Source: Pegea sp. RAD2-039 (lineage: Eukaryota; Chordata; Thaliacea; Salpida; Salpidae). Taken from it: a stretch of DNA of 64,000 bases. The stretch is from NCBI GenBank assembly GCA_034620365.1, contig JAQGEQ010000204.1:620001-684000 (forward strand). The letters run 5' to 3'. This document shows positions 882 to 35,600 of this stretch, piece by piece (the first letter of the stretch is position 1; the number at the start of each line of letters is the position of its first letter). A program made the translations under genes and the position numbers. The notes beneath the pieces are model-generated. The model was not told the origin of the DNA, made no database searches, and saw nothing but the letters and a program-made list of their open reading frames with translations.

Positions 882-3800
882 CTACGACGACACCACGTGA
901 CGACTAAACTGGCGACGCAGCGTGTTGATACCGTTATCGACTTGGCTCAAATGTTCCGGTCCAATGATTCCAAGGCGTTCCAGATCGCTGCACACGCATC
1001 AAGTCACCGATCAAGTCGTGATCAAAAAATTGAAGAGCTCACCTGGCTGTGAAGTTAAGAAGATCTTCGAGATTTTTGATGCCATGACTGTTAAAGTGAC
1101 ATCCGAAGTTTTGCATTCGGATCAGATCTAGCCACTCTTCTAGGGAGCTAACTGCTAAAGAGTCATCTTCTTCTCCACCAAAAGCTAATTGCGAGTTGTT
1201 GAGAAGGTTTAGTTGAGACTCGCCAGTAAAAGATGGCTGTGACGTCATGTACACGTCATCAAAGCACTCTAAGCGTGTTGGAGAGTTGACATAATCATTG
1301 AGCAGTCGATGAAGATCATCAAATGTGGGACGTTTCGTTTCCAAGACACTCCAACAAGTTAACATGGCATCATGAAGATGCTTCGGGCACTCCTGCCGAT
1401 GACGTCACAATTTACAATTGGTCAAATGGAATCAAATCAGGCACCTTCGGACACGCCAGTCGGTAGCCGTTATCAATACATTCAGTGACGTCATCATTGT
1501 GCATGTCCCAGTACGGCTTCTCTCCATATGACATGATCTCCCACATGACAATACCGAAGCTCCATACATCACTAGCGGATGTGAACTTCCGGTAACGGAT
1601 ACATTCTGGTGCAGTCCATTTTAGTGCAATCTTGCCGCCCTGTAAGCACACAAGTGGGTCAAGGGTCACATCTTATTTGCATAGAAGCTCACTTGAGTTG
1701 TGTAAGTTGCGTTTGGATCATTAGAAAGAGTCCTGGACAGTCCAAAGTCGGACACTTTGCAACACAAATTGGAGTCGATGAGGATGTTACGAGCTGCTAA
1801 ATCGCGATGGACATATTTCATCTCAGCTAAATATCTCATTCCACTAGCGATCCCTCGTTGCATCTTCAACAGATCCACCAATAGCAAGTCTCCTTTTCGT
1901 TTCTACAAATAATCAAGTTGTTCTTGAGCACAAGATCTTCTAGATCAAAGATTTGTTGATAAGATACCTGCAAAAACTTGTCTAAGGATCCATTGCTCAT
2001 ATATTCAGTGATAATCATTGCTGGCATCTCTGCAAAACAATCAGAAGATCAGATGAAGAAGAAGATTGGAATGTAGAGCAAGTGACTTTTTGTGACAACT
2101 CCTTTCAATTCGATGATGTTTGGATGATTAAATTGAGCCATTGTACAAGCTTCTTTGAGGAAGTTAGTTTGATCAACGATTCCAACTCCATCTTTTAATC
2201 TCTTCACTGCTACATCAATCACTTTATTTTTGCCCTCAGCGATCTTTCCACGACAAACTTCCCCAAACTCTCCACTTCCAACCACTGAGTGGATGTGAAT
2301 AATCTTTGGATCAAGCTCTATCGCAATATGTCTGATAGATTTGCTGGGCTCGCGGTAATCGACATAAGTTTTCCCGACACTTGCTTCAGCTGGATACAGT
2401 CATCATAGAAAGTGATCTTCGGACACACTTTTACTTACCACTAATTGTAGTCATGTAAATCTTTGAGTCATCTTTAGTACTCAGCTTCTTCGCTGCTTTT
2501 TGTAGTTCACTCCGACGTCGACGCCGACGAACGAGATAAAAGATACCAGCACAGATCAGACCTCCGATTACGACAATGACAACCAAAATGATGACAGGAA
2601 AAGATTTCTCTTCTTCCGTGACAAAAGTGATTTTCTCACTGAGTCTTCCTTCACCGATATCATCGCTTGCGCAAATTCGAACCTCATATTTAGTTCCGGG
2701 TGATAACTTAGTGGAACTCAAATCGATGAATGGTAAAGAAGTGGTAAGGATAGACTGATGGTACTTCAAGGAGGACTTTCCATCAGGTGCAAGAGGTTGC
2801 AACTGTATCTCGTATTTATGAATTTGACCTTTGAACCGTTCAGGTTGTGACCAGTGTAAGAACAAGCCCTCTGGATCTTTCTTCTTGATTCTAACATCTC
2901 TTACTGCTGATGGAACTGATAGAAAGCAAGTTTGGTAAATGATCATTTAATGATGTAAGATCAAAAAGACCTTCTTCACTGATTGAGAATCTCATCTTTG
3001 CTGATTTGGCGGTTTGTTGCGATCTTTCTGAGACTCCATTATAAGAAAAGATCTGTAGATGTTGATTGGTTAACTTCACTTGATGTGATCTCAATCAAAA
3101 CTTACTTTGATTTCATAGAAGAGAGATTGATTCAAGTTAGGGATGAAGATACTGGTCTTATCTAATCGATTCACGTTGTTGGGAATAAATTTGACAGAAT
3201 CAGAACATTTTTGGCAACTGATGAAACTTTCATCACAGATGTTACAAGAGACACTGAAGAAGTAAAAATGATTTCAATAAAAACAATCACAAAATAAAGA
3301 AGATAGAAACCTGTAGTAAATATCACTTCTTCCTCCTGTGTCCTTAGGAGCCATCCAACTGATTGAGACACTGTTTATCGCGATTTCATTTTTCAAATTA
3401 CGAGGAGCTGACGGAGGCTCTGGTGGTTAGATCAAGATTTAATAAATGAAGTAGAAAAATTAGTTCGATTGGTAGCTTCATGAGAAGAAAGATCTTTAAA
3501 CGTCTGCTAAACAGTAAGCTTCAAAAACTGAAAACTTCCAACTACTCATGCATGACTTCTAACTAAAAATAACTTTTTAAAAGCTTATGTTGGTTCTATT
3601 ACAGTTTGTAAGGTTTGCTTAACATCCTGCTAACTCCATTCCTTATTTACTTTTGTATTTATTGAACTACCGACTATAAGTGCTTAGCCGTCTTGGTGGT
3701 CACCATTAAAAAAGCGTGATGAAAATCTTTAATGATCTATGACAAATTGGATTGATGAGCTTGTGTCAAAATGATAAATAAAATGAAACTATTCGATTTG

Positions 3801-6665
3801 GGAAAATGTTTTTAATAATGTCTTCTAAAATAGATGTTTTTAGTGAGAAACGAACATTCTCCTAAATTGAAACAAGTGAATAGTAGCAGCTGCTAATTAT
3901 TTTTGCAAAATGTTTGGTTTTTAGTCAAGCTGAAGTTTTAACGCTTCTGTTATTTCAAGAAATTATTTGTTTAGAATTTTAGTGAAAATGTTTAATGCTT
4001 CTTTCAACAAATGTTGTTTTAACTTGAAAACAAATAAGTTAGTTTCCATAAAAAAGGTATTCTGAAATAATAAATTGTCAATTACTTGTACAGGAGTGAC
4101 CATTACTTTCATGATCGGCTCGGTAGTGATCATTCGAGCATCTACACATAGTGGAACCAGTTTGCAAAGCTTCACTATTTGCTGGACATCTGATACAATC
4201 ATTGTTGCCAACAAATGATTTGTAATGGTCTGTTGAACAAGCTGAAAAACAAACATGAAAATTATTAAAGTTTTTTTGCCTGTAAATCAAACATTAGTTT
4301 TGTCAGTTGCTAAATTATCTTCATGCTTCGATTTTTGTTTTACTTTCATGAAAAACTTTCTTTTTAATTTACAGATTATGGTTGGTTACTCAGACAACTC
4401 TCTTGCAAATATTGAAAGGTCATCACTTATGAGAAGATGAAGTCAGGGTAAAACAAATAAAAAACCTTTTCTCAATTATAAATAACATTCTATTTCTATT
4501 TTTTCATCGACAAAAGTTGAAATGTAATTCTATATTTTCAGAGAATTTTTTGTACAACTTTTCAGAACAAGACAAATAAAATTTGAAAATCTCCAGAAAT
4601 AATCAAAATACAAGTTTACTTATTAAATATATAAATAGAATGGGAACAAGTTTTACACCTTGACATTTGCCAGCAAGTAGAGTGTAGCCCTGACCACATG
4701 AGCAACTACCAGTGTTAACTGACCATTCGCCATTTGCATTACACCAGTACAACGGAACTGAAATACACAACTACTAATTAGGTCAATTTTTTCACCAAAC
4801 TATTTTTAATTAAAAGTTAATATTTTAATCTAATTGATTAAGTGACGCTGATTTAACATCAGATAAAAATTCTTTTATATTTATCTTAAATTTTATTTCC
4901 TGGAAAATTAAACAACTCTTCGACTTAACTTGAATGACTAACAAAAAGTTTTTACCCTGATCGCTTCCAACTGCATTTGCAACACATTGGCCTTCTGCTT
5001 TTGTCAATGAAGAAGAAATGGGACCAGATACTGTTCTTGGGTAGTTGACCAGTTGATAGGTGGTTTGAGGACAGTAGTTATAGAGTAGACGGATTTTAAT
5101 GATTGAAATACAACCACCTTGATCCCGAATGGCTATATACATTCCTTTTCTATAAAGAAATCTCAAGTTAAGGTCAAATTGGCAACATTATCTTCGACCA
5201 CCTCTCATTAATTTGATTAGGCAAAGAAATTACAAAATAAACAAATCGATAAATAGAGGTTGAGGTCTAGACCAGCTTCCTGTCTATCTCTTCAAGTGTA
5301 CTTTTGATAATGTACCTAGTAACGTTGTTGATCGGGAAGATCTTTGTCTCCATAGCATTTAAACTGCCAGGTCTGTTTTGGTCGTATTGATTGTGAGCAG
5401 CTACCACGTCTATTTTTTTATAGCGGGACTCATCCCAGGGGGGATAGTCCGGGTTGGCGATATCAGACTGGGCTTGGTAATTATAAATTGTGAAAGATTC
5501 ACGACATGAATCACATTTCGAGATCGTGAAAGTGATTTCGAGGAAGACTCTTTTTGCTGATCTAAAAACAGAAAATGGATTCATCAGTAAAACTATTAAG
5601 AAAGTCGGCATTAGTAATGACGTCATCCTAATGCTCTAAGATGACGTCATACTTACCTGACATCGATGTAAGGTGATCTCGTCCAATAATCCTTTAGATA
5701 GTGATCCGGTTGACAAATTTCTAGTGTTCGGATTGTTCCATCCTTTTTTAATCCCTTTCCTGACTGATCAGTCCACTGGAAAAATTGGAAGTTTGTAAAC
5801 AAAAGGAATGTTTGTTTAATCCAAGCTGACATTCCCAAGTCAATTATTTACAGATAAATCAGATTTTGATTTCTTTCATTTAAAATTTATTAATGGAAGA
5901 GAGGGTGTCTTTCACATAATGTTATGCTTCAGTTATTTTATTCATAAACAGTTTGAACTAAGAAGCTATAGTATCATAGCAATCGTCTAGCGAAAAATTC
6001 ATCTTTTTTTCTTTCAAAAGTTTGAACTGTAGGCAATTTGTTATCAGTTTAAAAACATTAAGCTCTTTCAAAAATGTCTTTCTAGTCATAGATGGTAATG
6101 GTTTCTGACTACTAGAAGATGACGAAGCATTTCACGGTTTATTTCTAAGTTCTCTAGAGACAAATGACATTCTGGCCAGGGCCTGCTTCTTCATTTTTTT
6201 AATATTTTCTGAACAAAATATTTAAGAATCTTTTTTACCATCACTTCCCCTTCTTTCATTGTCCAACCGAGGTCGGTTTTTAATAGCGCTGTGTTGTATA
6301 GTTCATCTAAAAAATAGACATCACTGTTTACATACATAAATATCATGTATAATATCTTGAAAAAACATGATAACTACATCCAGCTTTATGAAGCATTGAT
6401 AAAATATTCAAGATAACCAGCATAAAAAGAAAAAAGTTAAATCGTTCAATACGTTTTGTAACATAAAAAAGAGTTTCAAAGCCACCAAAATTTAAATGTG
6501 AATAAGTCAGTTTGAAAATCTAAGTTCAATATTTTTGTCGATTAACTTCACTAAACAAACATTAAGGTATGTTTGCATAAATAGAAAAAACAAACCAGAG
6601 TCTGAACAAGCCAGAGGCAAATTGCTGAAAAATCCGACCAAAAGAATTACTAAAAAAGGTTTCAT
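882..6665 (-). CDS. Eph receptor tyrosine kinase, copy A
   Basis: Receptor for membrane-bound ephrins, acting at the cell surface in contact signalling. Seventeen coding exons: 6665-6596, 6306-6239, 5775-5657, 5561-5316, 5149-4956, 4757-4659, 4241-4086, 3419-3311, 3253-3106, 3052-2971, 2915-2439, 2389-2087, 2029-1968, 1902-1693, 1639-1445, 1392-1043, 987-882. They total 2994 nt (997 aa, normal for Eph). Order: signal peptide (1-20), ephrin-binding domain with GTIRTLEIC, Cys-rich EGF-like part, two FN3 domains from about residue 318, TM at about 537-559 followed by a run of Arg, juxtamembrane TYVDYRE, kinase and SAM (about 928-985). The kinase looks active: GSGEFGEV loop, VAVK lysine, [11 protein letters not shown]. 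The C-terminus HVVSS is not a PDZ ligand. FN3 and kinase blocks are nearly identical to copy B at 15082-23190, whereas the ligand-binding half is not. It lacks four introns that copy B has. Family assignment is certain; the exact orthology class is not. Confidence 0.93.
988..1042 (-). other. 55-bp intron in the SAM domain of Eph copy A
   Basis: The donor GTGAGC and acceptor GTGCAG lie only 55 bp apart, and removal restores the SAM reading frame (ARxDLERLGI region). Copy B has a 49-bp intron (22952-23000) at the same codon. This is an example of the very short intron class in this window. Confidence 0.8.
1482..2231 (-). repeat. Kinase-core homogenised block, partner of 21548-22297
   Basis: This 750-bp block equals the plus-strand block 21548-22297 read in reverse complement, without gaps. 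I found only two differences, both synonymous (Leu codon CTG/TTG, Gly codon GGC/GGA). It spans four exons and the three introns between them, and the introns are identical too. Sequence on both sides diverges at once. It is best read as a gene-conversion tract; an alternative is a very recent partial duplication. Confidence 0.9.
2781..2859 (-). repeat. 79-bp homogenised block in FN3-2, partner of 20406-20484
   Basis: It matches plus-strand 20406-20484 with a single difference (Lys/Arg codon). It is separated from the 480-bp block by 33 bp of clearly diverged sequence, so it looks like a second short conversion patch or the remnant of a longer tract. Confidence 0.75.
2893..3372 (-). repeat. 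FN3 homogenised block, partner of 19893-20372
   Basis: This 480-bp block is the exact reverse complement of 19893-20372; I compared it line by line and found no difference. It covers most of FN3-1, the start of FN3-2 and three introns. Identity begins inside one exon at AGTGTCTC and ends inside another at GATGTT, so the borders do not follow exon or domain limits. Confidence 0.92.
5618..5649. promoter_or_regulatory. Paired TGACGTCA palindromes in an Eph A intron
   Basis: Two perfect TGACGTCA octamers (5618-5625, 5642-5649) lie 16 bp apart in the intron between the ligand-binding exons. The octamer is the consensus CREB/ATF half-site palindrome, so these could be binding sites; function is inferred only from the motif. 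Confidence 0.35.
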
Positions 6666-9600
6666 GATGCATCAAAATATAACTCCGGAATAATAAATAA
6701 AATAATAGCCTGTTACAACTTTTAGGCTATTCTATAATAAGCTGTATAAAATCTGTAAAATAAACAATTAAAAAATTAAAACCAGCACTATCATTCAAAT
6801 ATGACATTTTTAATTTGTTAAAGCTGTTAGCAAACTAGCAAGTATTTACATATCGGAAAAAATGTTGTGAAAAACAACGAATAAACTTGACACGAACTTA
6901 AAGACAATTTTAAGATCATAAAAACGTCAAGAAAACTAGTTTAGTTTTCAGCAAAAGTAAAACAGTTTTAAGAGAACATCTGTTACATTATCCAGAAATA
7001 GTACAAATGTTTGTAAACTAGTTTTTATCTGTTGTATATCAACTAATATTTCTTTTTTTGTTTGTAAATATTTGTGTAAAAAAACTGTAAGAAATCATAA
7101 AAAAATAATAAAAATAAACTTGTGTATAATCTTCGATATCAGAAAATCAAAATATTTTTAGAGTTAATGACATAAAAATACGAAAATTTAGAAAACATAC
7201 AAAATTAAAAAACAACAAAGTTAATAAGTCCTGATGGTTACTTTTATCACATGTCTAAATCATTTTTATAAACATTTTGGGCGACAAAACTATGGCCAAG
7301 CCAAAATAAGCGTCTAACTTACAGCCGCATACACTTAAAACCTTACCCAAAATAAATGGACATCGGGTAGTTGCTTGAAATTGAAGAAAGAAAAGAGAAA
7401 AAAGGAGAAAAAATGAAATAAAAGAGTAAGCGATTTCGTAATAACTTTTCGATTATTTGTAATATCAAAATAAAGAAATTGTTTTCTTTCAAAGCAGACT
7501 GAAAAAGATACAATCTTGAATCCAAATATGGTTAGCTAGATTAAAAGTTTATTTTCTTGTAAAAATAATAAGTAATAACATTAAAATCGATTTTTTTTCA
7601 AATAAAACAGTTTTTTAAATTGGTTGAAATTCATGTAAATATATTGTAGCTTCCAGCTACTGTAAATTGCCCATTTTCACTATAAATCTGAAATTGAGTG
7701 TTTATATTTCAATATCTACCAAATTTCTCATCGTAAATTTTTTGTGAAAGTTACCTTTTACAAGTGCTTTATTAAAGCAAGTTACAAAAGGAAACGATTT
7801 GATAAAAATTCATAATTGAAGTAGATGAGACGTCATAAAAGAAAAGTTCTTTTGTTGATTTGTTAGGGGTATTTTTTAAGGAAAGTCATATATTTAAAAG
7901 ATTGGCTATCATATAAGAAAGAAAAAACAAAGTCTAAATCTATTTCCCAAGACTAAAATTGTTTTTACGACTTAAATGTTTTGATTTTGATAATGTAAGG
8001 AGTTAAATTAAAAAGTATTTCAAAACCAGCAAAAATGTTTTCAAGTAAAAAGTATATAATTGTTAAACCGATAAGATATATGACTAGCAGAAAAAAAAGA
8101 AATAAAAAACAAGAAATAACTGTCATAATTTCAAAATGAGATGTTATCATATGTAAAGCAAAGAATTATAAAATTAAACTAGATTAGATACTAGTTTGAA
8201 AAGAAAAGGAAAAATTTGATTCTAATCAAGTTATAAAGCACAAAAGCATGCAAGAGTTGAAAAAGCCTTATATTATAAAGTTTTTTTTTAGTTCATAGCT
8301 ACGTATTATTATATTTTGAAAACAATATAGTTTGTTGCAGATTAAACTGAGTTTGCTGTTATGCCTCAACAAAATTGAAAACAATAAAAAGGGATTCAAT
8401 AAAATGTTTTTATATGAAGTAAAAGATTGCCGTAAAGATTTTTTTAAATAGCTGACTATAAATAGCATCTACCTGTACAGTCTCTCCAAAATATCGACAA
8501 ACAATTCCTTCTTCATCAGCTACTGTTTAATATTCTCTTTATTATTCTTAAGCTTTTTAACGAGTTAAAATTTAAAACCAACAAAATGTCTTTTTAGCTA
8601 ACTGATAACTCAGTATAATCAGTTGATGTTCTACTAAAATGGTTCATAAAGCATATGCTTTGAGATAACAATTAAACATTTAATTTGAATCTTCGTCTGT
8701 AAAAATTGATGATCAGTAGAAGTATATGATAGTCGAAAAACTATTGTCTACACAGATCTTGTACTTGGTAGTATTTAGCAGCTGATACAATTGCTGCATT
8801 CGTGTACTTTACTACACAACTATATTGTTTGCTTGAAGAAAAACAACAAATTTTAGGTTGGTTTTTTAATTACTGTAATATTATTCAGATAATCTTTCAT
8901 TCTCTTGACATAATCAAATGATAAACAAATTGTCAATTATTTTTCCTCTAAAATCATTTCCTTGCTGTAGATTATTAACTTTGGATGATAAAGTCATGAA
9001 ATGTTTACTAACCCTAAACCTATGAAAAAATGAAAATCACTGAAATTAAACTATCAATACATAATGAAATAGTTCTACCCATCATCTTTGTTTTCTTTAA
9101 CCACCACTGCTTCTTGATTTTTTAAATGTTTTCATAAAAATAATATTTGCATTAAGTTTTATAATTGCTAATAAAAGCATAGCCTGTGTATAGTTCATTA
9201 TAAACTGCTATTGTGTATAAACAAAAGTAGTGAAAAATCAACTGAATTTTATTACTTAAATTCTCCTTGATATTCATAATTAGGAAACGAAAAATAAATC
9301 TAGAGATTTCCGTATTTTGTCTACTGGTGAGTTGAATTATTGGTGCTTTATATTTAAAGTGATAATTTATGATAAGTAAAGGGGATACACTATAGAAAAT
9401 TGAGAATTACTGCTGTAACCAGTTACATTGATTTTATTTAATGAGAAGATAAGAAGTTTTAACTCTACTATCAATGAAGACACTTTGTTGTACGAAATTG
9501 GGATCAGATAAGTTACATGACCTTTTACCTGCCAAGTACAAGTGAAAATAACTTACTTGCATTATGTAATGAGAAATATGAGAATACCAGCAATATTTTA

Positions 9601-12600
9601 ATATCAAATAATTTGAATACTGTAGTATTTATTTATACAATATTTCAAGTAATTATCAAAATAAACATTCAGATAAATCAACTTTATTTCTTCGGGAGGT
9701 TGTATGTCTTATTATTCCAAATAAATTTCCAATGACATCAATTTTAAATCAATTACAAGATTGTTTTGTTGGAAATTTTCAAAAACAAAAATATCCTATA
9801 ACTTTAAAGTTGTCTTCATCCAATAAAAAATCTGGTTTGATTACCTGCTTCTACTGCAGTGATTTCGAAAGTAAAATTTAACTATGTCCCTGCTGCAATT
9901 GCATCAGTTTAAAATATGAGGTAAAATATTATAACAGTCATAAATTTCTAAAATAATTAACAACAGATCAAGAATCTGGTATATTAATGAGTTTTATAGA
10001 CGTAGAACCGTTTTAACCTGTTTATGATTTAGTTTTAAAAAGAAAATAATATAGATGCTGACTTTAAACACTAAAATAGTTGTTTTTCATTATTGATAGT
10101 ACGTAATGCGATAGAGTTCCTGAAATTATCTGTTTATTTTGTTGGCTTGTTTCGAACATTGTTCATTGACATCAGTATTTATGCATTCTGAAAACAAACA
10201 AATATCTTGTTAATTTTTAATCGTGCTGAAATGCTCTTACAATTTTTCAGTCAACAACTTTTTCATTAATAAAATATTTGTATTTTCCAGATTTAAAAAC
10301 AATAAATAATTAAATTTCAGCCGCAAAGTTTACAAATATATTGTTAATGTTGGAATTAATACTGAGTTTGTTTTAAACAATATAATCCATTAAAAATTTG
10401 ATTTTGTTTTTTTTATATTTTTGTCATTTTTGATAAAATGGTTTTGTAAATCCCAAACTCTAAAAGCATTTGTCAACAACCATTTTTCAAAAATATTTTT
10501 CTTTGACAGCTTAGTGCGACCTTTACTTAAACCCATGCTCAAAATAGTCCAACTAATTCATTTGAACCAGTGACAAAGTTGCTTGGTCTAAAGATAATCA
10601 ATGTAATTGCAACATTGAACAATTTAATTTCAATTCTGCAATCTTTGCTGCAAATATTCAATAATTATATAAAACATTTTGAAAATCAAATTAAGTTGAA
10701 GAAGTTTGAAAATGATGTTTCAACTCATCATGTGAATACAAATAATCTTTATTTGCTTCTTGCTTTTTTATACTGAGCATCAAATTTATCAAAACATTCT
10801 TTATGTTGTTGTAAGTTAGAAAAAATCCTTGCAATAAAACTATCGATAACTTTCTATAAATATATTATTTGTGATGTTTAATTTTTGTTTGTGTTTAGTT
10901 CCATATTTGAAAACTTTTCGACAATATCATTAAAAGCTTCCAAAATAGATTTAAACTTGTTTAAATGCCAATCTTTATTAAGAAGTTTTATGAATTTGGT
11001 TTTTAATAGAGTTGAAATTTAAAAATAGTAAACTCATGATTAGGAGTTTTTTGAAGTTAGGCTAGAGATTTATCTGAATCAGTTGAGAATAAAAAGGTCT
11101 TTACAAAAATATTTTCAAATTATTCCGTTTACTAATTTACACTTTTAAGATATTATCCTTCAAACATTAACAAAAGAAGTAGAGAGTAGAAAAATAAACT
11201 TTGTTCGTGAGATTTATGTTGTAAAAGAAATAGTACTTGAATCAAATAAAAGGTAAACGACAAATTTCATTGTTAAAAAGTTACTTTTAGCTCATATCTA
11301 AAACTTGCTGGGTGGGCCGGAAATAAGCTTCCGGCTTTGGCTTGTTAGTCGAAAACACTCACAACTAATAGTTTGTATAGTTCTATTGCAAAAAACTTGA
11401 AAAAAATTGTTACAAATTGAAGTATATAAAATTTTTATAGAAAAAATAAATTTTGCTGTAAAATATTTAATAGTTTTCTTAAAACTTCTCGAATTTAACC
11501 GCTGAACGTCGCAGCTGAGTGTGATAAATGTAGCTTAAAAACTGACTAAAGATACTAAGCTCTCTTGAAAAACTTGGTAGTAAAATATTTAAAACATGAT
11601 CTTCCACATATTCAGCAAAAGTTCTAAAAAATGTTGTATTTATGATTAAATTTTTATAAACCTATTTTGAAACCACGAGACTAGAAAAACTTTTGGCAAA
11701 ACTATCAATAAATTAAAAACTATCGCCTTAAAGCTAAAAGTATCTAAATATAACTTTCAAATTAAATAAAAAGGAGTTTGGTAATAAAAATCAATTTTAG
11801 AGTTGTTTTAATTAAATCGTTTATCATTTTAGCTGCTTTCATTTAGAGGAAAAATATTTTTACTTTTAATTTTCTTTATATAATTTATTGTTAGTTTAGT
11901 AACAAACGTTCACTAGCTGTTAACATAGATCTTTAATTAAAATCTTTCAAACTTGCAATTCATCAGCTAAAGGATCGAAATCGAGATGTTTTGGAATCAG
12001 AAAGAGTTATATTTGAGTAAAAATAAAATCTATTTAAATAGGCTGACTCAAACTTGTAAACTGAAGTTATTAAATATATCTTTTTTTTTAATATAAATAA
12101 ATCGAAAAATATAATTTTTATTTAAAGTATTCATCTATACAAAAAAGATTTAATTACGATTTTATATAAATCATTTTTCAAATTATTAAACAAAAGTGAC
12201 ATGGATTTTAAAAAAATCAATTTATTTCTGTTTATATATTTTGAATAAATGTTGATAGATACAATAAAAAGCTTGAAGGTGATGAAAACTTTCTGAACAA
12301 TATTGGGAAGAAAAAAAATCTAAAAAAAAACAGAAAAATATTCTAGATTTAAATTTAGTTAATGAAAAGTGAAGTAGAAAATAATCTGCTTCTGCGTGAA
12401 AATTTATTATAACTAATTTATTATTTTAATTATCAGCTAAAAATCAATATTTTGTATTAACTATTCACAAGTAAACCAGCTTGAACTTTTTATTATATTT
12501 ATCTTAGATAGACGAAAATATAAAGTTTTTATATCAAAAAAATCATATCTGTTATAAAAATTAATCATTATAATTATCAATAAATATTATGACAATTTGT

Positions 12601-15081
12601 TTATCATAATAGTTAAAGTTATTTTTAAAAAAGTTTTGAAATAGTTTTTATTTAATTTGATAATTTATATGGATTTTCAGGTTAAACATTCATACTTATT
12701 TTCATTTCAAAAATCTAATTCACTTAAATAACTTTTGTCAAATCGATATTAAAAAAATATGGCAAAATCTTGACATTTGTTGCAAAAGTATCTTGATTTA
12801 TTTTGCTATTCCGTTTTTGAGTATAACTATCAAATATAAATCTGTATGTTCATGTTTGGTCTATTACATACAGTTTTTACAGGATTGAACTGCTATACAA
12901 TGATTTATGAAGCAATTAATCAGTACAGAATATTTTGTTGTTTGAAATCCGTTGCTGAACAAGTTTTTTCTTGATATTTTCAACTTGTAAAACTGCATGT
13001 ATCTGATATATAATTGCTGGCATAAGCACAGCATATCAAATGTTACAGGCAAGTGAATTATAAGAGCATGTTGTAAGTTGAAAATAGCAAATCTTACAGA
13101 TAAAATCGTCTTCAAAAATCTATCTCAAACTATTTACAAAAATGTAAAATTATAAATTACTGTAAATAGTGTTTTAAGTAGAACCTACTCTTTATTAATT
13201 AAAAAAAGTATTAAAACTGTATTTAAAGCAAAACAATGATACATTTTATAGATTAAATATTTATGAAATATTCTATTTAAGCTATCAATACTTGATACCG
13301 ATTAAAATTAATTTTAAGTTGTTTGTTGTGAATTCTTATAACTATTAACGACATGTAAACCATAGAGGTTTGTTTCAATTACAACATTACGACTTACTGT
13401 TGTATTTTTAGCATCTTAACTTTGCTAAATTCCCTATTATTTAGTGATCGTCAAAACCTCGCCAGAAAATTGAATTTAAAAAATTAGATATTTATATATA
13501 TTATTTAGACAGGTTGAAATTTATGAAAATAATTGTATTTTCAAAATATAACAAATGTTGTTATCACAAAGGTTCCAAGAAGTTCGTTTTTGTTGTCTGA
13601 AACGTTCTTAAGTATTTCTAACTATTTTTCTAAATATTTTCAATGTGAAAATATTTCAACTGAATCCATTTTTAATACAAACATAATGAATTTGATTTAG
13701 CCTAAAGGCATGTGTCAAAACTTATACGTCTTCAATTGACACCATTGACAGGTAAAATGAGAAAAACCACAAATATTTCCCACTACCTACGAATAATAAA
13801 ACTTCAAAATACTCATTATGTTTATCTTTTATGTTTGTTACGCTTAAATAAGTTCGAGTTCTCCTATTTAATTAAAAAGCTAATTATAAAAAGATTTTGT
13901 AACATTTTTAGAACCATCTCTTAGCAGTAAAAAAGTTCACCGAAAACAAGCTACGAAAATTAAATGAAGAAAATACGAATTTCAAAGCTTGAGTCATTTT
14001 TGCTTCTAGACAGGAATTTTGTGGAAAAATGTTCGAATAAAAACTGCTGAGTTACAACTGTGTTTTGTCACTTTGTATAAAAACAAAATCTTTTACAATC
14101 AAATTACTATTCTTCATTTTGTGTTATCTATTTCAAAGTTAAATCGACTTTTCATCTGATACATTCCTCTTCAATTGGACTGATAAATGGTAAATTCAAA
14201 GCTTTTATGTTTTAACAAAATTGCAGAAGAAGAGAAAAACGTTTAAATCATAAATGATGACATCAGATAGTATCAGGAGACATGTTAAAACATAAATCAT
14301 AAAAGGCAGCCTCTTTAAGTTTAGTTTCATGTGGTTTCTATCAAATAAACTTTTCAAATTCAAAATCAGAGTTTAAAGTAGTCACCTTAAAAATTTAGTT
14401 TTTCAGGAAGAAAAACCACAGAATGTTCACAATCCGAACAGGTGTGCAAGATTTGATATACAAACATTTTATTAAATTTTTCAGAACATTTTTATCATAT
14501 TAATTAGAAAAAGTGATAATGATTTCTTAAAATTTTAAAATTTAAGAAATAGCACCAGATTCATTTTCTAACTTTTATGAAATCATTTTAGAAGTAACAA
14601 AACCATTATCAACTATTTGATCGATTTATTAATTATTATATGAAATTATTGTTAGTCAAAAATCAAGAAATGCCTCTTTTTATGAAAGTCTAAGCTTGTT
14701 AAAGTATCTTCTTTTAGAGTATATGTTCAATGAACCGTGATAATATCCGTACTCCAGTGCGTCACCTCTCGGTAAAATTGTTTTAAAGAATGTGAGAAAA
14801 GATAGAAGAAGGCGAAATGATGTACTTTTTGTTACCAACTCTAAAATACCACTTCATTCTCTGTTTAGTGTTGTTTAGTGGTAGTTGTTCATTTTGTGAC
14901 TTTTTGTTTTGAGTTTAGTTGAAGATCTGTTAACTACTGTTATTTGTTTGAGTTGTTTTTCAGCGTTCACAGTTTTACCTAATCTGTAAGCAAAAGTAAT
15001 TTCAATTTTCACCTTTTGATTTTTACAGTTTGTAGAAACAAGATTGGTTAAAAAACAATTTATTAAGAACATTTTTCAACA
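6666..15081. other. Gene-free region between the divergent Eph genes
   Basis: No exon with splice support was found in these 8.4 kb. The DNA is strongly AT-rich with many homopolymer runs. Because the two Eph genes start at its two ends, promoters and any shared enhancers must lie here. Notable spots are a GC-rich hairpin with two ETS-like cores at 11315-11334 and a more GC-rich patch near 14740-14790, about 300 bp before the copy B start codon. Confidence 0.6.
11315..11334. promoter_or_regulatory. Inverted repeat with paired ETS-like cores
   Basis: A perfect 7-bp stem (GCCGGAA and TTCCGGC around a 6-base loop) sits in a GC-rich island within very AT-rich DNA. Each arm carries CCGGAA, the core recognised by ETS transcription factors. 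It lies midway between the two Eph start codons. Regulatory function is inference. Confidence 0.3.
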
Positions 15082-18000
15082 ATGAGCTTGTTTTTGAGTC
15101 TCTATTTATTCATCATTGGTTCTTCAGCAGTCAATTCGAATACAGGTAAGCTTAACTGAATATTTTTGTCAAAAGGTCATCGTAGCTTTGACAGAATGTC
15201 TAATTGAGGTCGAATCATCCATGACTTTTCTATTCAGCTGATTTAATAAAAAAATAAACTTTTTGAGAATAAAAAAGATGGTAATTTGTTGAATGAATGT
15301 AAAAAGCTTGAAAATGATAAAATTCAATTATATCTATTATGAAATTGTTAAACAAATTCAATTTGTTGTAAAGCTTTCAAAAATAGCTTTTAAAAGATTA
15401 TTTCAAACAAAAAAGATTTAGTAATAAAATGATGATTAGCAAAAACTAAGTATCTAAAAATCTTCTCAAAAACAAAAACTTAACATTTCGAAACTTCGAA
15501 TGATTTTTGTTACATTAAAATCTTGGGAGAAAAACATGAAACTATTTGAACAGCCCAGGGCAGTTCTACAATTCGGAAATTTCGCTAAACTCGTTTTGAT
15601 GACGAACAAATTATTTTCAGTTGACATCTACAACACAGTTGATATGCACAGTGATCTGAGCTGGTCATCGAAGCCAGGAGATAATGCTGTGAGTATATTG
15701 TCAGTAATCTAAATGCTTGTTTCCAAACGTCTCAAGTCCAGTTTTTTTTCTGTCACCAAACCTAAAATAAAATTATCTGATCAAAAAGATATCACATCTG
15801 ATCTAGTGACGTCATACGACGGTTGTTAACTATTCTTGCTGATATGACGTCATATCCGATTTAAATCTTTCAAAACTACGTAGTGGTCTGAAGTAAGTGG
15901 AGGAGATGGGAGAGGAGGAACGATCCGTACTCATGAGATCTGTGCAACGATCAGTGACTCTGAAGAAGAACATTGGCTCCGTTCTCCCTTCATCAAAGTC
16001 CAGTGAGTCTTTCATTACTTTTCAGTCTTCTCACGTTTCATACTGCTGGGAACAAAGTAAAGATATCAGCTTCAAGTGCAAATGTCGGCGTGCGATGCAA
16101 TGACGTCATCGAAAATGGAAAAGTTGTAAATCATTCACATTAACTAAAAGTGATTTGAAGGGTCCTTGGAGTCTTTCTCAATTTCTCGCTCCTTCGGTTG
16201 CGAGCGTTCAATCGAAGTATTGATTGCTCGGAAATTGTAAACTTGTGAATTAGCAAACGAGACGTTTGAAGCACCAAAATTCCAATTTCTCTTCTCTTCT
16301 TTATCTTCGAAATATTTGAAATTTAAGCATTGGAAACACTTCACTATCTTTTTTATCGATTTTTTGACACAGACGTCTGACCAGTTATTCTTTCAAATGT
16401 TTTTCGTTTTTAATTGCAATTTCCTTTAACAGAAAAGAACATTTTAAAAGATTACAATCTAAATCTTCGTTTAAAGCTTTTTTTATGAAAAAAACTTCTA
16501 GATAAGCTTACGAAATGTAAACATGTCTCCTATCTGTACTTCTATTCTTTAATATTTAAGTTAGATATCTATATTTACATTGAAACATTTGTATATGTAG
16601 TAGACATGTTTCAAACTTCATTTTAATCATTTGTTCTTCATCAGATCAGCCAAACGAGTTTATGTGGAAATCCACTTCTCAATCTTCAAATGTGCCGACT
16701 GCCGTGAAACTTTTACTCTTTATTACTATCAAGCTCAGCGTGATATCTCGACATCAACATTCCCTCCATGGAATGAAGACTTGTATGTCAAGATAGACAC
16801 AATTGCAGCAGATAAACGTTTCGATGGAAGTACCAAGCAAAATGTAGTCAACAAAAAGACTCTCGTCATTGGATCACTTAAAAGGTGTTTAAATTTTGTT
16901 ACTCACGAGGAAAAAATGTATTTATGACTAACAGTTACATCATTGCGTCAATAGTTGTCTCGAAAGTTCGAAAGTTGTAATAAAGTGAGCTTTTGTAGAA
17001 AAACATCAACAATCACTTCATAAGATCATTTGATTAGTTTTGCTATTTTAAGAAATGGAAGTGAAATAAGGCAACTTTTGTGACAGAAACTGTGATTCGA
17101 ATAAAAAAGTTTATAAATAAATTGTTGATGATATCAGAAAGAGATGTATATCATAAATCACTCAAATTGATCAAATCATTTATTAGACAGCTACAATCTG
17201 CTTATGACAACTCTATTTGTAACTTTTCAGGGAAGGCATTTATCTTGCTATTAGAGATCAAGGTGCTTGTATGTCGATAATGAAGATTCGTTTGTTCTAT
17301 AACTACTGTCCTGAAATATCACGTGACCTCGTTCACTTCCCAAGAACAGTAGCAGGTGGCGAGCAGGCCTCATTGGTGGCTGTTAATGGTCAATGTGTCG
17401 CTAACTCTGTCCCCAAAGATAACAATGAAGGTTGGTATCATTATACTAATTAATTTATGAACAAAAAATCTGTTCTAGTGGAAAAAATGACATATTGAGT
17501 GAACTTTTCTGTATATCACTGAAAGATAGATTTTATAGATATCGAAATGTCAACTGTAAATAAGATACTGCAAAGTTGACTTCTATTTTTATCAGACTGA
17601 ATGCTTATTTTTATCAATAATGACTTTTGCTCAGACAATGACGTCATCATAAATCATATTTCTATATTACAGTCAACCGATACCACTGTAACACCAATGG
17701 AGAATGGACAGTGCCCACCGGGTCTTGTTTATGTAACTTGGGCTATCAAAATGTACTTGGTAACTGTAGAGGTGTGTTAAAATTAAAATATTTTCAAGAA
17801 CTCAAAGAGAGGATTTATTCAGTTATAATTGAAAATATTTATAAAAGTTAAATTAGCAAAATACAAATTCCCTCAAAAGACAATTGTCAGCCAGCCTTTT
17901 ATTTGTAAAATTTTGTTCTTCTAACTTTTGGAACTTCTTTCTCCAAACTAATCTCATTCATAAAACTGAATTGAAAACTCGCACAGAAAGAGGATAGTAT

Positions 18001-21000
18001 CTTCCGATGAGTCAGAGGAGAATTGCTTTTTATCTCATCTCTACTTTCATCTTTTTGTAACTTTTTTTGACGATTCAAAAAGATTAGCTTCAATTCATTT
18101 TAAATCAAGTTAACTCATTTTTGTTGGAATCATAGAGTTTTCATAAAATTTAGTTGATTTGTGAATCGAATCAAAATAAGAAAACAAATTAGAAATGAAT
18201 TTTTGCGTAATCACTTTTTAATGGGTTTGAGTCTTAAGCATCTGCCACCTACAAACACATCTGTTTTTATTCCTTAAAACCCTTTCATACTTTGTTGAAG
18301 TTTTTCTTTTTCTAGTCTTTCTCTAGAACCAAGCGTTTTATATGTTAAAAAACTAATAAGTTAATTTTTAACTAAGTCACGTGTTTGCATGCCGGGTTAA
18401 CGAAATGCCGAACTGAATAAGGCCACTTATAATTCCTGCAAAAATTTAACCTTATTTCTCTAAAAAACAAGTTTTTTAACTTATTTTTCGACTTTTATTT
18501 TACAATTAATTAATTTATACCGACCTAATGCACAAATTTGTTGTTTATTTAGCATGCAAACTGAATACTTATAAATGGAATGTTGGAAAAGGAAACTGTT
18601 TAAAATGTCCTGAATACAGCTACACAAAAGAAGAAGCAGCTTCAGTATGTCAATGTGTGCGAGGATATTACAAATCACAAACTGATAATGTTACTGTTGC
18701 TTGTACAAGTAAGTTATTTTGTTAAAAACAAGTTCACTTTACGATTTGTTTTTGAGAAAACAACTTCAATTAATTTCTAAGTTGAAGAAGCTGAGTTAAT
18801 AATTAATTCAGAACTTCAGTTGTAAAAGGGCTACAAAAAAGTGCTTTTATCCACCAAAATTTAAACATGAAAAGTATAGAGCTAAAATAGAAGACCACCC
18901 ATATTTAGGAACGCCTTTTAAGGGTATTTCGTCATCTATACAAAATTAGAACAACCTAATTTCAAACCTTACCACAAAAATGTATGTTAGATTATACGCC
19001 TAAGGTTTTCAGATAAATAGAAATGAAAAAAACATCGACATTTCTTTAAATGCTAGCCGATCATAAATATTAAGCTTAGACTGGTTCTAAGAAGTCAAAT
19101 TTCAAGTAATTTGCTCCAATGTAAGTCTCTTTTTCAATTGTTTTAGAAAATCGTCAATTATGTTGTAAAATAAACTGCAGTTCACTTGAAAATTTAATCA
19201 CACCAAAAGCGTTAATCTTGTAGTACTATTAAGACAACAGCCCATCAATAATATATTTAAAGTATCTTTGCAATTAATCTTCTAATAACTACATAAGCAG
19301 GATTGTTTACTTTTGAAGATTCACTGTTTTCTTATAGTCAGTAACTTAAAGTCTGCTAACAGCCTGTAATTGATTACTTGTTTGTGGAAGGCTGTTCCCT
19401 GGTAGCTTGCTTAATAGACCTCCTACTGACGTTATGATGTAACTTCATCGCTTTGGCTTTCAACACTGAGCTTTCTACAAATTCCAACTAGTTCAATTTT
19501 ATCAGTAGTTACCAGAGCTTTTTATCAGTACCTTTTTATCTTTTAAAGATTAACCAAATCAGAGATAAACCATTTCAATTATTTTAATACTTATTTAATT
19601 GCACACAAAAAATTGAATCTATATTAAAGAAAAATTAAAATTATGTCAACAGAAATAGAAAAACATAAATGCTTCACAAATTTTGAAGTTTGTTATGAAA
19701 GCAAATTAAAATTTCTTTAAAACTTATTTGTAGTCAGCAGCGATGCGTGAGTGCTTTATATCTTTTCAAGCTTACTCTATAACAAATATTTATGAAGTTG
19801 ATTTTTATTACAGTAAATTTACTTTGATCTATTGTTTATCTTCAGAACCTCCGTCAGCTCCTCGTAATCTAAACAGAAAAATAGAGAAGAATAGTGTCTC
19901 AATCAGTTGGATGGCTCCTAAGGACACAGGAGGAAGAAGTGATATTTACTACAGGTTTCTATCTTCTTTATTTTGTGATTGTTTTTATTGAAATCATTTT
20001 TACTTCTTCAGTGTCTCTTGTAACATCTGTGATGAAAGTTTCATCAGTTGCCAAAAATGTTCTGATTCTGTCAAATTTATTCCCAACAACGTGAATCGAT
20101 TAGATAAGACCAGTATCTTCATCCCTAACTTGAATCAATCTCTCTTCTATGAAATCAAAGTAAGTTTTGATTGAGATCACATCAAGTGAAGTTAACCAAT
20201 CAACATCTACAGATCTTTTCTTATAATGGAGTCTCAGAAAGATCGCAACAAACCGCCAAATCAGCAAAGATGAGATTCTCAATCAGTGAAGAAGGTCTTT
20301 TTGATCTTACATCATTAAATGATCATTTACCAAACTTGCTTTCTATCAGTTCCATCAGCAGTAAGAGATGTTGGAATTGATGGTCGAAGTACGAACAGTT
20401 TATCTTTACACTGGTCACAACCTGAACGGTTCAAAGGTCAAATTCATAGATACGAGATACAGTTGCAACCTCTTGCACCTGATGACAGTTCTTTCGAAGG
20501 AGCACCTCTTTCTTTTTTGGTAGATATTCTGAAGATCACAATTAATTTATAACTTTTATAATTTTTCGTTAAAAGGTTGACACCCAGAACATAACTATCA
20601 CTGGACTAATGGCGGCGACCAGCTATCGTGTTAGGGTCAGGGCCCGAAGCACTGAAGGTTTTGGATATTCAAGCATACCTCAAACTTTTTCTACGACCGA
20701 AGGTAGTTTGAAATGTGATCTGGAAGCTAATTGTGGTCCTAACTGTTTTCTCTTTCTCTGTAGAAACCAAAAACCTTCAGATCCCAATCATTATTGCCGC
20801 TTGTGTTGGAAGTCTTTTATTCGTATTAGTTGCTGTCTTCTTATTGGTTAGAAAACGTCGCAAATCAGTGAAGCATAGAGTAGAAAAAACTCGTGTTTCG
20901 TTAAAGCTTGAAAATGGATCCTCTAAAATCTTATCAAACATCGCAACCAAACACAACCTTAATGCTGAACTCCATGGTAATTACAATTATTATTTTTTTC

Positions 21001-23190
21001 CTAAATCTGCTTCGCTCTAAAGTAATTTTCTACAACTAGCTCCTGTTTTACAAAGATTGAAAGTCTTCAGTTAGATTGATGCTCAATAGTTGGCAGAGTA
21101 TTTATTTTGAGATTATATACTTCTTATCCTCTAGTTTTTTAACTCAACGTTTATTGGCTAATCTTACTCGACTGTAACCAATCCTCTAATGCACATGAAA
21201 TATTCTTTCATTTATCAAATTAGAACTCCCGTTTTAGTAAAGACTTCAATCTTGTTCAGCTTCACTGAAAACCTTGAAGCTTACTAGTCATTATTTCTAA
21301 AAGACTTGGTCTCTTCAGGGAGGTCAATGCGGAAGACATACGTCGATTATCGAGACCCTCATAAGGGTGTAAAAGATATCGCGAAAGAGATTGAAGTTTC
21401 TAAAATCAAAGTTCAATCTGTAATTGGTCAAGGTCAGTTTGTCGTCACTTACCACATCCTCGCTATTTTCGTCGAAATTTTTCACCTAGTAGCATTTTTC
21501 AAATAGGAGAATTTGGAGAAGTTTGTCGCGGGCAAATATTTGAAAGTAAAAATAAAGTGATTGATGTAGCAGTGAAGAGATTAAAAGATGGAGTTGGAAT
21601 CGTTGATCAAACTAACTTCCTCAAAGAAGCTTGTACAATGGCTCAATTTAATCATCCAAACATCATCGAACTGAAAGGAGTTGTCACAAAAAGTCACTTG
21701 CTCTACATTCCAATCTTCTTCTTCATCTGATCTTCTGATTGTTTTGCAGAGATGCCAGCAATGATTATCACTGAATATATGAGCAATGGATCCTTAGACA
21801 AGTTTTTGCAGGTATCTTATCAACAAATCTTTGATCTAGAAGATCTTGTGCTCAAGAACAACTTGATTATTTGTAGAAACGAAAAGGCGACTTGCTATTG
21901 GTGGATCTGTTGAAGATGCAACGAGGGATCGCTAGTGGAATGAGATATTTAGCTGAGATGAAATATGTCCATCGCGATTTAGCAGCTCGTAACATCCTCA
22001 TCGACTCCAATTTGTGTTGCAAAGTGTCCGACTTTGGACTGTCCAGGACTCTTTCTAATGATCCAAACGCAACTTACACAACTCAAGTGAGCTTCTATGC
22101 AAATAAGATGTGACCCTTGACCCACTTGTGTGCTTACAGGGCGGCAAGATTGCACTAAAATGGACTGCACCAGAATGTATCCGTTACCGGAAGTTCACAT
22201 CCGCTAGTGATGTATGGAGCTTCGGTATTGTCATGTGGGAGATCATGTCATATGGAGAGAAGCCGTACTGGGACATGCACAATGATGACGTCACTGACGT
22301 CATACTAGATGGCTACCGCCTCACTTGCCCTGAAGTAAGTTGATGACGTCATTATGTCTTTGCTGTGCACCCATGTATGACAAGTTGTCACAATTTTGAA
22401 TGATGACGTTTTGTTACCCTGTTTTGATCTCTCATATTTGTCTCATGTCCATCAAAGTGGTCACCGAGTTGTTCCGCCTCATTGCACAAGCTTGTAACTG
22501 AAAGCCCTTCAACTGTTTGCGGTCACTGAAGTGTGACGGCTCGATGGAAATCTTTTACTGATCCTTTTCTCTGTATTCAGGAGTGTCCTATGGCTCTTCA
22601 TGATCTTATGCTGAGATGTTGGAGTTTTGATCAGCATAAACGACCCACATTTATCGAAATTTACTCACAGCTAGATGGTCACGTGACCAAACCTAGCTCA
22701 CTACTCATCAATTCATCCAATGAGAACTCTTGTGATCTGACGTAAGTGAATCTCGTCTAAAACCATCTTCAACTAATCACATCATCTGCATCTTGTAGTC
22801 AGCCTCTAATCAACCCAGACAGCCCGTCAAGTCTACAAGATGTGTCCACTGTGGACGAGTGGTTAGAAATCATCTGCCTCGGCAAGTATCGTCGCAGCTT
22901 CCTTGCAAATGGCATCAATGATCTTGAAGCTCTCAGCAACATCAACACCAGGTGGCGCACTCATCATTTGATGATGAATCTTTCAACTTGCTCTCTACAG
23001 TGATCTTGAAAGGCTCGGAATCGCGTCTCCCGAGCATCGGAGTCGATTACAAAGCGGAATTGATACATTGAGAAGACACATTCATCAAAATACTCATTTG
23101 CGAAGAGACACCAATTCAGATTCCATAAATCTCATCAACAAAGGAGCTTATCGAAGTCCAGCTGATGAGCCTCCGACTGCGATCGTCTAA
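15082..23190 (+). CDS. Eph receptor tyrosine kinase, copy B
   Basis: Divergent paralog of copy A with the same role. Twenty-one coding exons: 15082-15145, 15621-15688, 15884-16002, 16645-16884, 17231-17430, 17673-17771, 18553-18708, 19846-19954, 20012-20159, 20213-20294, 20350-20519, 20576-20702, 20764-20976, 21319-21432, 21507-21692, 21750-21811, 21877-22086, 22140-22334, 22581-22741, 22799-22951, 23001-23190. They total 3066 nt (1021 aa). Domains: signal peptide, ephrin-binding domain (GTIRTHEIC), Cys-rich region, two FN3, TM at about 535-557 followed by RKRRK, juxtamembrane TYVDYRD, kinase ([23 protein letters not shown]) and SAM. The C-terminus is TAIV, a weak PDZ-ligand candidate. Compared with copy A it has extra introns in FN3-2, before the TM, in the glycine loop (21433-21506) and between kinase and SAM. 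FN3 and kinase-core blocks are almost identical to copy A; the ligand-binding exons are clearly diverged. Confidence 0.93.
16140..16640. other. Intron of Eph copy B without recognisable content
   Basis: The intron between the third and fourth coding exons holds a locally GC-richer patch (about 16150-16330), including a short CGCTCC/GAGCG inverted match. No splice-supported exon or known element was recognised. Confidence 0.3.
19893..20372 (+). repeat. FN3 homogenised block of Eph copy B
   Basis: This is the partner of 2893-3372: identical over 480 bp in reverse complement, including three short introns. Outside the borders the two genes differ immediately, for example in the start of FN3-1 and in the FN3-2 codons after AVRDV. 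Confidence 0.92.
20406..20484 (+). repeat. 79-bp homogenised block of Eph copy B FN3-2
   Basis: This is the partner of 2781-2859, with one difference in 79 bp. Sequence after it, including the copy-B-specific intron at 20520-20575, has no close match in copy A. Confidence 0.75.
21433..21506 (+). other. 74-bp intron inside the kinase glycine loop, copy B only
   Basis: The donor is GTCAGT and the acceptor AAATAG; splicing yields VIGQGEFGEV. Copy A encodes [10 protein letters not shown] without interruption. The conversion block begins at 21548, just 41 bp into the following exon, so this intron difference was not erased. Confidence 0.8.
21548..22297 (+). repeat. Kinase-core homogenised block of Eph copy B
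   Basis: This is the partner of 1482-2231 (748 of 750 bases the same by hand comparison). The right border falls at the last bases of a TGACGTCA octamer region, where copy B continues into a second TGACGTCA and copy A does not. Confidence 0.9.
22286..22302. promoter_or_regulatory. Double TGACGTCA within a kinase exon
   Basis: Two TGACGTCA octamers (22286-22293 and 22295-22302) are separated by one base inside a coding exon, encoding part of DDVTDVI. The first is shared with copy A; the second is specific to copy B and lies across the end of the homogenised block. It may be a binding site or a recombination-associated motif; neither is shown. Confidence 0.35.
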
Positions 23191-32695: not shown

Positions 32696-35600
32696 TCATT
32701 CATCACAATAAACTTCTTCTGCTAGTTCGTAATATTTAGTAGCCAGTTTTCCTTTTTGTTGCATCATCGCTATCTCAGCTGCTTCATTATATAATTCAGC
32801 TGTAAAAATTAATCAGCAAATCGTGAGTCAGCATCAAATGATTCAAACTGAAGATTATTTCAAACACTAGGTGTCGATAGACAACACATTTCAAGATGAT
32901 ACTTTGTGGGAATTCTACAAACCTGCAAGATCTCGATCTTTCGTCACCCCATCACCTCCTTTTAAGTATATATGAGCCTTATACTCGAGAATCTCATATT
33001 TAGGAGCCAACCGACTCAGCACCGAGTCATATTGGCCTTCGGCATCGTATTCATCTTCATTGTGGAGTAAGCGATCAAATAATTCCAAAGATTTTTTCCA
33101 ATCTCGTTTTCTGAAAACATAAATTCAACATCCGATCACAATGATTGCTAGTTAGCGGTCACCTGTCCACAGGAAGACCCTGTCCAGTGTAGAAAGACTT
33201 GGCCACAGTAAAGATAGCTTCCCGGTCACCTGCTTTTGATCCAAGCAGCAAGTAGTTGAAACCAATTGCCCGATTCTGTTCTGTGTCCTAAAAACTGATC
33301 CAGTAAAGATTTGATGATTCAAAAGATGATGATCTGACTAACTTCAATCTGAAATTGAGAGATCAGATCATGAGGAAGTCCGAGGAAGATTTTTGCCGCT
33401 GTTTGAATAGCGCTGAGACATCCACAATCTGCAGCGATTTGAAGATGAAAAACAGCTGATTGGAAGTCGAGTTGGAAGCGATCACAATCATAATAGATGA
33501 CCATGACATAGTGGATCTGTAGATGAAGAGATTGAGTGGAGAAAATAAGAAAGAAGATAAAGACCTTTCCTAGGATTGATTTACCAAACTCGATTTGTTT
33601 CTCAGCTAAGAAGCAAGAAGCTCTTCGATGAAAATGAGAGTTGGAAGTAGAAGGATGAAGAAGCGAGATCTTCCGCTCTGAGGATCGTTCATTTTCTTCG
33701 GGAGGTTTAATAACAGGAGGAGGGTTCAGTAGCATCTCATGATAATCCTGAAAAAAGAAGAGATCAACACTATTCGGGATGATCTAAGAAAATCATACAC
33801 TATGATCGGATGTGACGGTGATTGTTCGGATGCGAGGAACTGATCCGTATCCGATCGAATCTACATCACTATTTGTGCTACTTCGCGAGCGACGGATCAC
33901 TTGATGATCACTATCTTCCTTGATGTAGTCGTTATCATCACCTGCTCTTAGAGAATCTCTTAACCTCCGATCACTTAAAACGAGATGATCACCTTCAGGC
34001 GATCTTGGAGGTAGATACAACTCTTCGTGAATACAATCAGATTCGAAGGAATGGAAGGCGGAAGAAAGAGGTTCTTCGTGTCCAGTGGGAACGGTTTCTC
34101 GTCTCTTTGAAAATATTTTAATGTTACAAGCGCCCTCTAGTGTCATCTTTCACTGACATTTTCAAAGACATTCCTATCTTTGAGACGTAACTCGAAAGGG
34201 GAGAGATCAAAAGATGAGAGATTGAGACTCTGACAGATTTGATTGCATCTGTGTGAGTAAAAGAATAACGCCATTCCCTTGGTTCCCAGATTACCCGTTC
34301 CGTATTCAGTTCCTCTACATCAGATCATAAAAAGGATTTGAAAGATACAAATATAATCCTACTTGTGAGTATGAATCTGAGGATCTGTCCAAAGATCACC
34401 GACTCCTTGAATATCAACAACAATCAAGCGGTGCTGAGAACACTCGAAAGTAAAGTGACTGAAAGCCTGAAGAAAAGAGGAGGATGAAGATGAGAAGAAA
34501 GATCAGAGTGAGATGCGACCTGTGGTGTGGCTCGAGCTTCATCAGACACAAATCCTGAGTTGGAATTGTATTTGATGTAGTCACCTTCAATGTAGTTCTC
34601 CAAATGATAAAGAGGTTTATTCGGTTCTTCAAACATTTCAATCACTGACATTTGCATAATATCAACCTGAAGATAACAATTTGATGAGGATGATGGGATC
34701 ACTCTTATGAGGTTGTGAAGATAACAATTTGATGAAGATGATGGGATCACTCTTATGAGGTTGTGATGATCAATTTGATGAGGATGATGGGATCACTCTT
34801 ATGAGGTTGTGATGATCAATTTGATGAGGATGATGGGATCACTCTTATGAGGTTGTGATGATCAATTTGATGAAGATGATGGGATCACTCTTATGAGGTT
34901 GTGATGATCAATTTGATGAGGATGATGGGATCACTCTTATGAGGTTGTGATGATCAATTTGATGAAGATGATGGGATCACTCTTATGAGGTTGTGATGAT
35001 CAATTTGATGAAGATGATGGGATCACTCTTATGAGGTTGTGATGATCAATTTGATGAGGATGATGGGATCACTCTTATGAGGTTGTGATGATCAATTTGA
35101 TGAAGATGATGGGATCACTCTTATGAGGTTGTGATGATCAATTTGATGAGGATGATGGGATCACTCTTATGAGGTTGTGATGATCAATTTGATGAGGATG
35201 ATGGGATCACTCTTATGAGGTTGTGATGATCAATTTGATGAGGATGATGGGATCACTCTTATGAGGTTGTGATGATCAATTTGATGAGGATGATGGGATC
35301 ACTCTTATGAGGTTGTGATGATCAATTTGATGAGGATGATGGGATCACTCTTATGAGGTTGTGATGATCAATTTGATGAAGATGATGGGATCACTCTTAT
35401 GAGGTTGTGATGATCAATTTGATGAGGATGATGGGATCACTCTTATGAGGTTGTGATGATCAATTTGATGAGGATGATGGGATCACTCTTATGAGGTTGT
35501 GATGATCAATTTGATGAGGATGATGGGATCACTCTTATGAGGTTGTGAAGATAACAATTTGATGATTTTGATGATGGGATCACTCTTATGAGGTTGTGAT

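Follow-up and report, generated by a model that had tools for sequence, protein, structure and literature searches.

Several animal systems are known in which neighbouring paralogs exchange sequence by gene conversion. The Hsp70Aa/Ab, Hsp70Ba/Bb and Amylase pairs of Drosophila are palindromic paralogs under ectopic conversion (PMC3924832); in Caenorhabditis, conversion at hsp16, act-1/act-3 and col-12/col-13, in inverted or direct orientation, reaches introns (PMC3966223); and the GOT1 paralogs of the copepod Tigriopus contain diverged islands amid conversion (PMC3728101). The Eph receptors of urochordates, for their part, group together as a separate clade (Mellott and Burke 2008, PMC2405795). 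Here we describe a cluster of three old Eph receptor genes, two of which (A and B) lie in a stretch of 64,000 nucleotides of contig C42 (the window: C42:620001-684000), and which share sharply bounded tracts of near-identical sequence, very probably as a result of recent conversion. All observations come from one assembly of one genome, and genome searches were run on the whole of it (105.7 Mb, 387 contigs).

As in the Drosophila pairs, linked inverted paralogs have been homogenised; the differences are that the homogenised stretches here, introns included, make up just part of each multi-domain receptor gene, and that a third, directly oriented gene is involved. The resemblance to the Caenorhabditis cases, as those are presented in the source, is closer in structure (introns carried in the tracts, adjacent paralogs, diverged flanks, compact introns), but each receptor gene here has several interrupted tracts, and one tract is common to three genes. 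Tigriopus GOT1 shares with this locus the diverged islands and the novel mosaic combinations; several populations were compared there, whereas a single genome is considered here, in which islands of identity stand in a diverged background. Tunicate Eph receptors have been studied before (PMC2405795, PMC6993872), and the present genome has five Eph loci; gene conversion goes unmentioned in the consulted portions of those two papers (the words "gene conversion" have 0 occurrences in the main text of PMC6993872). No report of gene conversion in Eph genes was found among the papers listed by searches of openly licensed PMC literature, an absence that is weak evidence. The process is known; this Eph case appears to be new.

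Tracts of identity in two divergent Eph genes

Genes A and B are divergently transcribed. Gene A (882-5775, minus strand) is modelled in 15 exons, from e1 (5657-5775) to a stop at 882, with GT..AG at every modelled junction and an open spliced frame of 952 codons, stop included; the model begins at e1, and the upstream signal-peptide exon or exons lie outside it. Gene B (15905-23190, plus strand) is modelled from e2 to e15 (16645-23190), a frame of 938 codons including the stop; its e1, missed by the modelling script, was placed at about 15905-16003 by tblastn only. Gene C (C42:602224-611165, plus strand; 980 codons including the stop) lies about 9 kb beyond the window, on the same strand as B, and is therefore in direct orientation to B and inverted and convergent relative to A. 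Over their modelled parts all three genes have open spliced frames. The joined ectodomain exons of A and of B match the Pfam families Ephrin_lbd (3.2e-25 for A, 1.1e-34 for B), Ephrin_CRD and Ephrin_rec_like. EphB2 is the best match of the gene B ectodomain (6.9e-91); the alignments run from the ligand-binding domain to the second fibronectin type III domain (FN3-2) and span 440 query residues with EphB2 and 439 with EphA4. The Eph architecture (ligand-binding domain, Cys-rich region, two FN3 domains, transmembrane segment, kinase and SAM domain) is thus present in one chain, its last three elements being read from the frame only; for gene C, profile support covers the ephrin-binding exons.

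Three gap-free tracts link A to the reverse complement of B. Tract 1 (1482-2231, minus strand, in A; 21548-22297, plus strand, in B) covers the kinase core from part of e10 to part of e13 and takes in introns e10|11, e11|12 and e12|13 (the bar marks the intron between two exons); 748 of its 750 positions are identical, and the two differences, at window positions 1891 and 2108, are synonymous in frame (GGA/GGC and TTG/CTG). Tract 2 (2893-3372, minus, in A; 19893-20372, plus, in B) is identical throughout (480/480) and covers FN3-1 (part of e6, e7 and e8), the start of FN3-2, and introns e6|7, e7|8 and e8|9. Tract 3 (2781-2859, minus, in A; 20406-20484, plus, in B) lies within FN3-2 on the diagonal of tract 2, from which a patch of 33 bp separates it; 78 of its 79 positions agree, the exception being AAA/AGA (Lys/Arg). 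Over the three tracts together A and B differ at 3 of 1309 bp. The edges of tract 1 are sharp: the adjoining 42 bp on the same diagonal differ at 21 positions at one end and at 12 at the other, where the following 57 bp differ at 45. When synonymous codons in the A-B alignment were permuted in 10,000 rounds, the longest identical run was at most 57, against 108 observed (0/10,000): the A-B blocks are not chance.

Outside these tracts the two genes have little left in common. A and B were compared unit by unit, exon units by synonymous divergence (pS, dS) and introns against 20 shuffles. In the units lying wholly inside tracts, pS is 0 (e7-8), 0 (e11) and 0.02 (e12); in the six tract-free units (e2-e5, e14, e15) it is 0.61-0.81, that is, saturated. 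Units cut by a tract edge (e6, e10, e13) are intermediate at 0.20-0.45, and e9, which holds all of the 79-bp tract and into which the 480-bp tract just reaches, stands at 0.56. Every one of the six tract introns is identical between A and B (57, 53, 55, 57, 65 and 53 bp); of the seven other shared introns that were compared, six align no better than the best of their shuffles (e5|6 equals it to two decimals), and e14|15, at 0.73, slightly exceeds its shuffled maximum of 0.71. Coding identity outside identical runs of at least 60 is 0.544 over 1791 bases. Judged by these flanks, with silent sites saturated and introns at or near the shuffled level, the paralogs are old. The first-pass annotation, made from the letters of the window, had described the three blocks, the silent nature of both differences in the longest, the identical introns within and the strong divergence on either side; recounting bears out each of these. 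It had also held that the FN3 and kinase modules are kept the same while the ligand-binding end is free to differ, and this needs narrowing: homogenisation is confined to FN3-1, part of FN3-2 and the kinase core, and the transmembrane and juxtamembrane parts, the late kinase and the SAM region (units e9, e14, e15) are as diverged as the ligand-binding end.

A third gene in the probable exchange

Part of tract 1 is common to gene C. This part, consisting of e12 (HRDLAARN...DFG) and about 24 bp of the upstream intron, lies at 1691-1926 (minus strand) in A, at 21853-22088 (plus) in B and at C42:608505-608740 (plus) in C; the C copy has 4 differences to A (232/236) and 3 to B (233/236). Two of these differences fall in the last two codons of e12, where gene C may keep its own bases; inside the tract proper C and B differ once (AGA in C, CGA in B), and A has one further private site. 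At e12 the dS of C to A or B is 0.04-0.07, while every other unit compared between C and A or B has a pS of at least 0.59; the adjacent exons e11 and e13 of C show silent-site saturation relative to both A and B, and in FN3 (e7-8) the protein identity of A/B to C is only 26%. Taken whole, intron e11|12 of C is 0.86 identical to that of A or B, against at most 0.71 for shuffles. In the same synonymous-codon permutation, the observed longest run was reached in 0 of 10,000 rounds for A-C and for B-C alike.

Nothing else in the genome was found to take part. Searching with the ephrin-binding domain yielded 13 matches at the level of exons, spread over five loci: A, B, C (C42, near 602 kb), and one each on contigs C258 (D) and C293 (E). 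The 750-bp block matches A, B and two stretches of gene C, and no other place. A search with the e12 peptide at E <= 0.001 found at least 60 places, with A, B and C at 99-100% and at least 57 others at no more than 66% identity (146 candidates were scored, and the counts are lower bounds). When C42:580001-694000 was compared with itself, with 30 kb from each of C258 and C293 added, identity above 80% appeared only at the Eph blocks and at one tandem repeat. A haplotig or fourth copy was considered and rejected, the 480-bp block and the FN3 stretch each matching two places in the genome. Conversion joins three genes, in inverted and in direct orientation. The earlier proposal of conversion between two inverted genes stands for the pair A-B; its set of partners was incomplete, the directly oriented gene C sharing the 236-bp tract.

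Conversion weighed against its rivals

Could selection on the protein, the most familiar reason for a conserved kinase, have kept these stretches alike? Eph receptors in general, as PMC2405795 presents them, have in the kinase domain one of their most conserved regions, and selection alone might be supposed to hold the kinase core and FN3 identical. The blocks are not explained in this way, because introns and silent sites are identical inside them, whereas outside them silent sites are saturated and introns are at or near the shuffled level; the introns already refute this reading unless every one of them hides a constrained element. FN3 e7-8, so different between A/B and C, is evidently not under strong constraint, and e11 and e13 of C have run to saturation on either side of e12. 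We give this explanation practically no credence, in agreement with the first-pass annotation, which had dismissed it on the strength of the identical introns.

An error of assembly or polishing, by which the sequence of one paralog was written into another where reads were confused, is a more serious rival, there being a single assembly to judge from. It is nonetheless a very unlikely one, because the copies retain private bases within the sequence they share (A at position 1891, C in its AGA codon), because the three loci that would all have been affected have unrelated flanks, and because the third locus would have to be included in the error; the 33-bp patch left unconverted between two near-identical stretches also speaks against it. 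Segmental replacement by template switching during replication, or by a double crossover between the inverted copies, stands slightly lower again in our estimation. A series of short blocks set apart by diverged sequence is a pattern that would suit template switching, and no observation decides against either route, since the product is the same as that of conversion. The double crossover, already raised in the first-pass annotation, is indistinguishable from conversion in one genome; against it, the directly oriented third gene calls for further events.

Recent interlocus (ectopic) gene conversion within the cluster, which the first-pass annotation had favoured, is by a wide measure the best explanation: it accounts for identical introns and silent sites in sharp-edged blocks, for saturation outside them, and for the further tract shared with a third paralog. 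A broken copy would have been repaired from the template of a neighbouring paralog, and the repair would have overwritten exons and short introns alike while leaving the flanks untouched. The last homogenisation of all the tracts was probably recent and of similar age, because A and B differ at only 3 of 1309 bp and C and B at 1 position inside their tract, apart from the last e12 codons. These counts (0/480, 1/79, 2/750, and 1 for C-B) would fit one recent episode; several episodes close in time would look alike. How such events begin is a harder matter. Ordinary homologous repair is unlikely to start in coding DNA that is only about 54% (A-B) or about 49% (C-A and C-B) identical, as is the coding sequence remaining here. 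Because that remaining DNA is too diverged to start homologous repair, the tracts probably represent islands held alike by earlier conversion ever since the duplications.

The two short patches within FN3 deserve separate comment. The 33-bp patch between tracts 2 and 3 (2860-2892, minus strand, in A; 20373-20405, plus, in B) differs at 20 positions and lies just before the conserved Trp of FN3-2. In the corresponding place of FN3-1, a 24-bp patch (3373-3396, minus, in A; 19869-19892, plus, in B) differs at 11, and the 21 bases upstream of it in A (3397-3417) are again all identical to B. By alignment to EphB2 and EphA4, both patches precede the conserved Trp of their domain. They may have escaped through patchy mismatch repair, may be the borders of separate events, or may be held different by selection: their matching sites could mean that selection keeps A and B distinct there. 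Two instances are too few to carry that last suggestion, and each patch sits close to the end of a tract, a place at which patchy repair would be expected as well. It is in any case doubtful, though conceivable, that the locus reflects a long-running, domain-wise concerted evolution, in which repeated conversion would maintain a shared kinase core (and, in A and B, a shared FN3 stem) while ligand-binding, transmembrane and SAM regions diverge and selection preserves small paralog-specific patches at matching positions in both FN3 domains. That selection has chosen the converted modules, an adaptive reading, is hypothetical.

With regard to the donor, the data lean weakly toward transfer from B to A; gene C may either have given or received. 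Introns e9a|b, e10a|b and e14a|b are present in both B and C, in the same phase (judged from exon lengths), and absent from gene A, which also has no e9b|c, an intron of B alone among the three. The absences relative to both B and C, at least three in number, are all in the 3' half of A, and no missing intron is in a tract, as would be expected if B's DNA had replaced A's in the tracts. The chance that the lost introns would all avoid the tracts is, by four ways of counting, P 0.049, 0.091, 0.162 and 0.243, and the argument that conversion restored introns from B is too weak to be relied upon. (Gene C has itself no intron e7|8, which A and B have.) Loci D and E do not help to name a donor either: at e12 the amino-acid identities of the three genes to D, and likewise to E, agree to within one residue.

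Three considerations weigh against conversion as read here. Initiation in flanks so diverged is mechanistically awkward; a patch of 33 bp with 20 differences between near-identical stretches demands an extra assumption; and the evidence comes from a single assembly of a single genome.

Surroundings and significance

The genome is probably that of a tunicate other than Ciona intestinalis. A 16-nt spliced leader, ATTCTATTTGAATAAG, followed by GTA, has 47 exact sites in it (0 for the reversed control), 33 of them in an array of spliced-leader RNA genes at C4:1135044-1142220, with a spacing mostly near 199 bp; loci L031-L038 cover part of this array. ATTCTATTTGAATAAG is the leader of C. intestinalis, whose 46-base spliced-leader RNA is described as having the Sm-binding motif AGCTTTGG (PMC7986045). 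That motif is absent from the first 60 bases of 8 units of the C4 array taken from L031, and because of this the genome is probably not C. intestinalis itself. COX1 was not found in the assembly.

The window is also rich in a short motif. TGACGTCA occurs 18 times in it, against 0.54 expected, and 50 times in C42:570001-704000, with 0 occurrences in 60 kb of C258 and C293; GATGACGTCATC, a 12-base palindrome, is found 3824 times across the genome and its reversed control 4 times, and among the matches listed its sites look clustered on C1. Such a genome-wide palindrome recalls the highly iterated palindromes of cyanobacteria. Among the literature matches listed for the 12-mer GATGACGTCATC, none is by its title about this subject. 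Sites of the two include window positions 1240-1247, 1486-1493, 22286-22302 and 60746-60753, and TGACGTCA also falls within coding exons of A and B. TGACGTCA was considered as a motif of tract edges and rejected: the site at 1486-1493 meets one edge of the 750-bp block, and the sites listed in A and B are near no other A-B edge.

Other features of the region are a tandem array at 34677-35669, in which a 46-bp unit is repeated about 21.5 times with 96% matches (blastn self-matches extend to 35827), and a dispersed repeat at C42:670122-670359, C42:685614-685947 and C293:235172-235467, its copies 65-74% identical. A nuclear receptor at 53745-55340 (minus strand) combines a zf-C4 with a hormone-receptor domain in a single open frame that includes a long linker; its best matches are RAR beta and LXR beta, that of the ligand domain alone is VDR, and matches among solved structures include RAR, LXR, VDR and PXR. 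As to a tunicate origin, this receptor speaks neither for nor against it. The open frame at 59782-61185 (plus strand) has a diacylglycerol-kinase catalytic domain and is presumably sphingosine/ceramide-kinase-like.

What the Eph cluster offers is partial conversion in a very clean natural form, with recent tracts, identical introns included, in paralogs that are otherwise saturated, and with one exon common to three genes in both orientations. It poses the question of how conversion persists, or starts at all, when coding identity over the rest of the genes is only about one half. There is a warning here too: trees built from the kinase domains of such Eph receptors can mislead, because on exon e12 all three genes would be placed together as near-identical.

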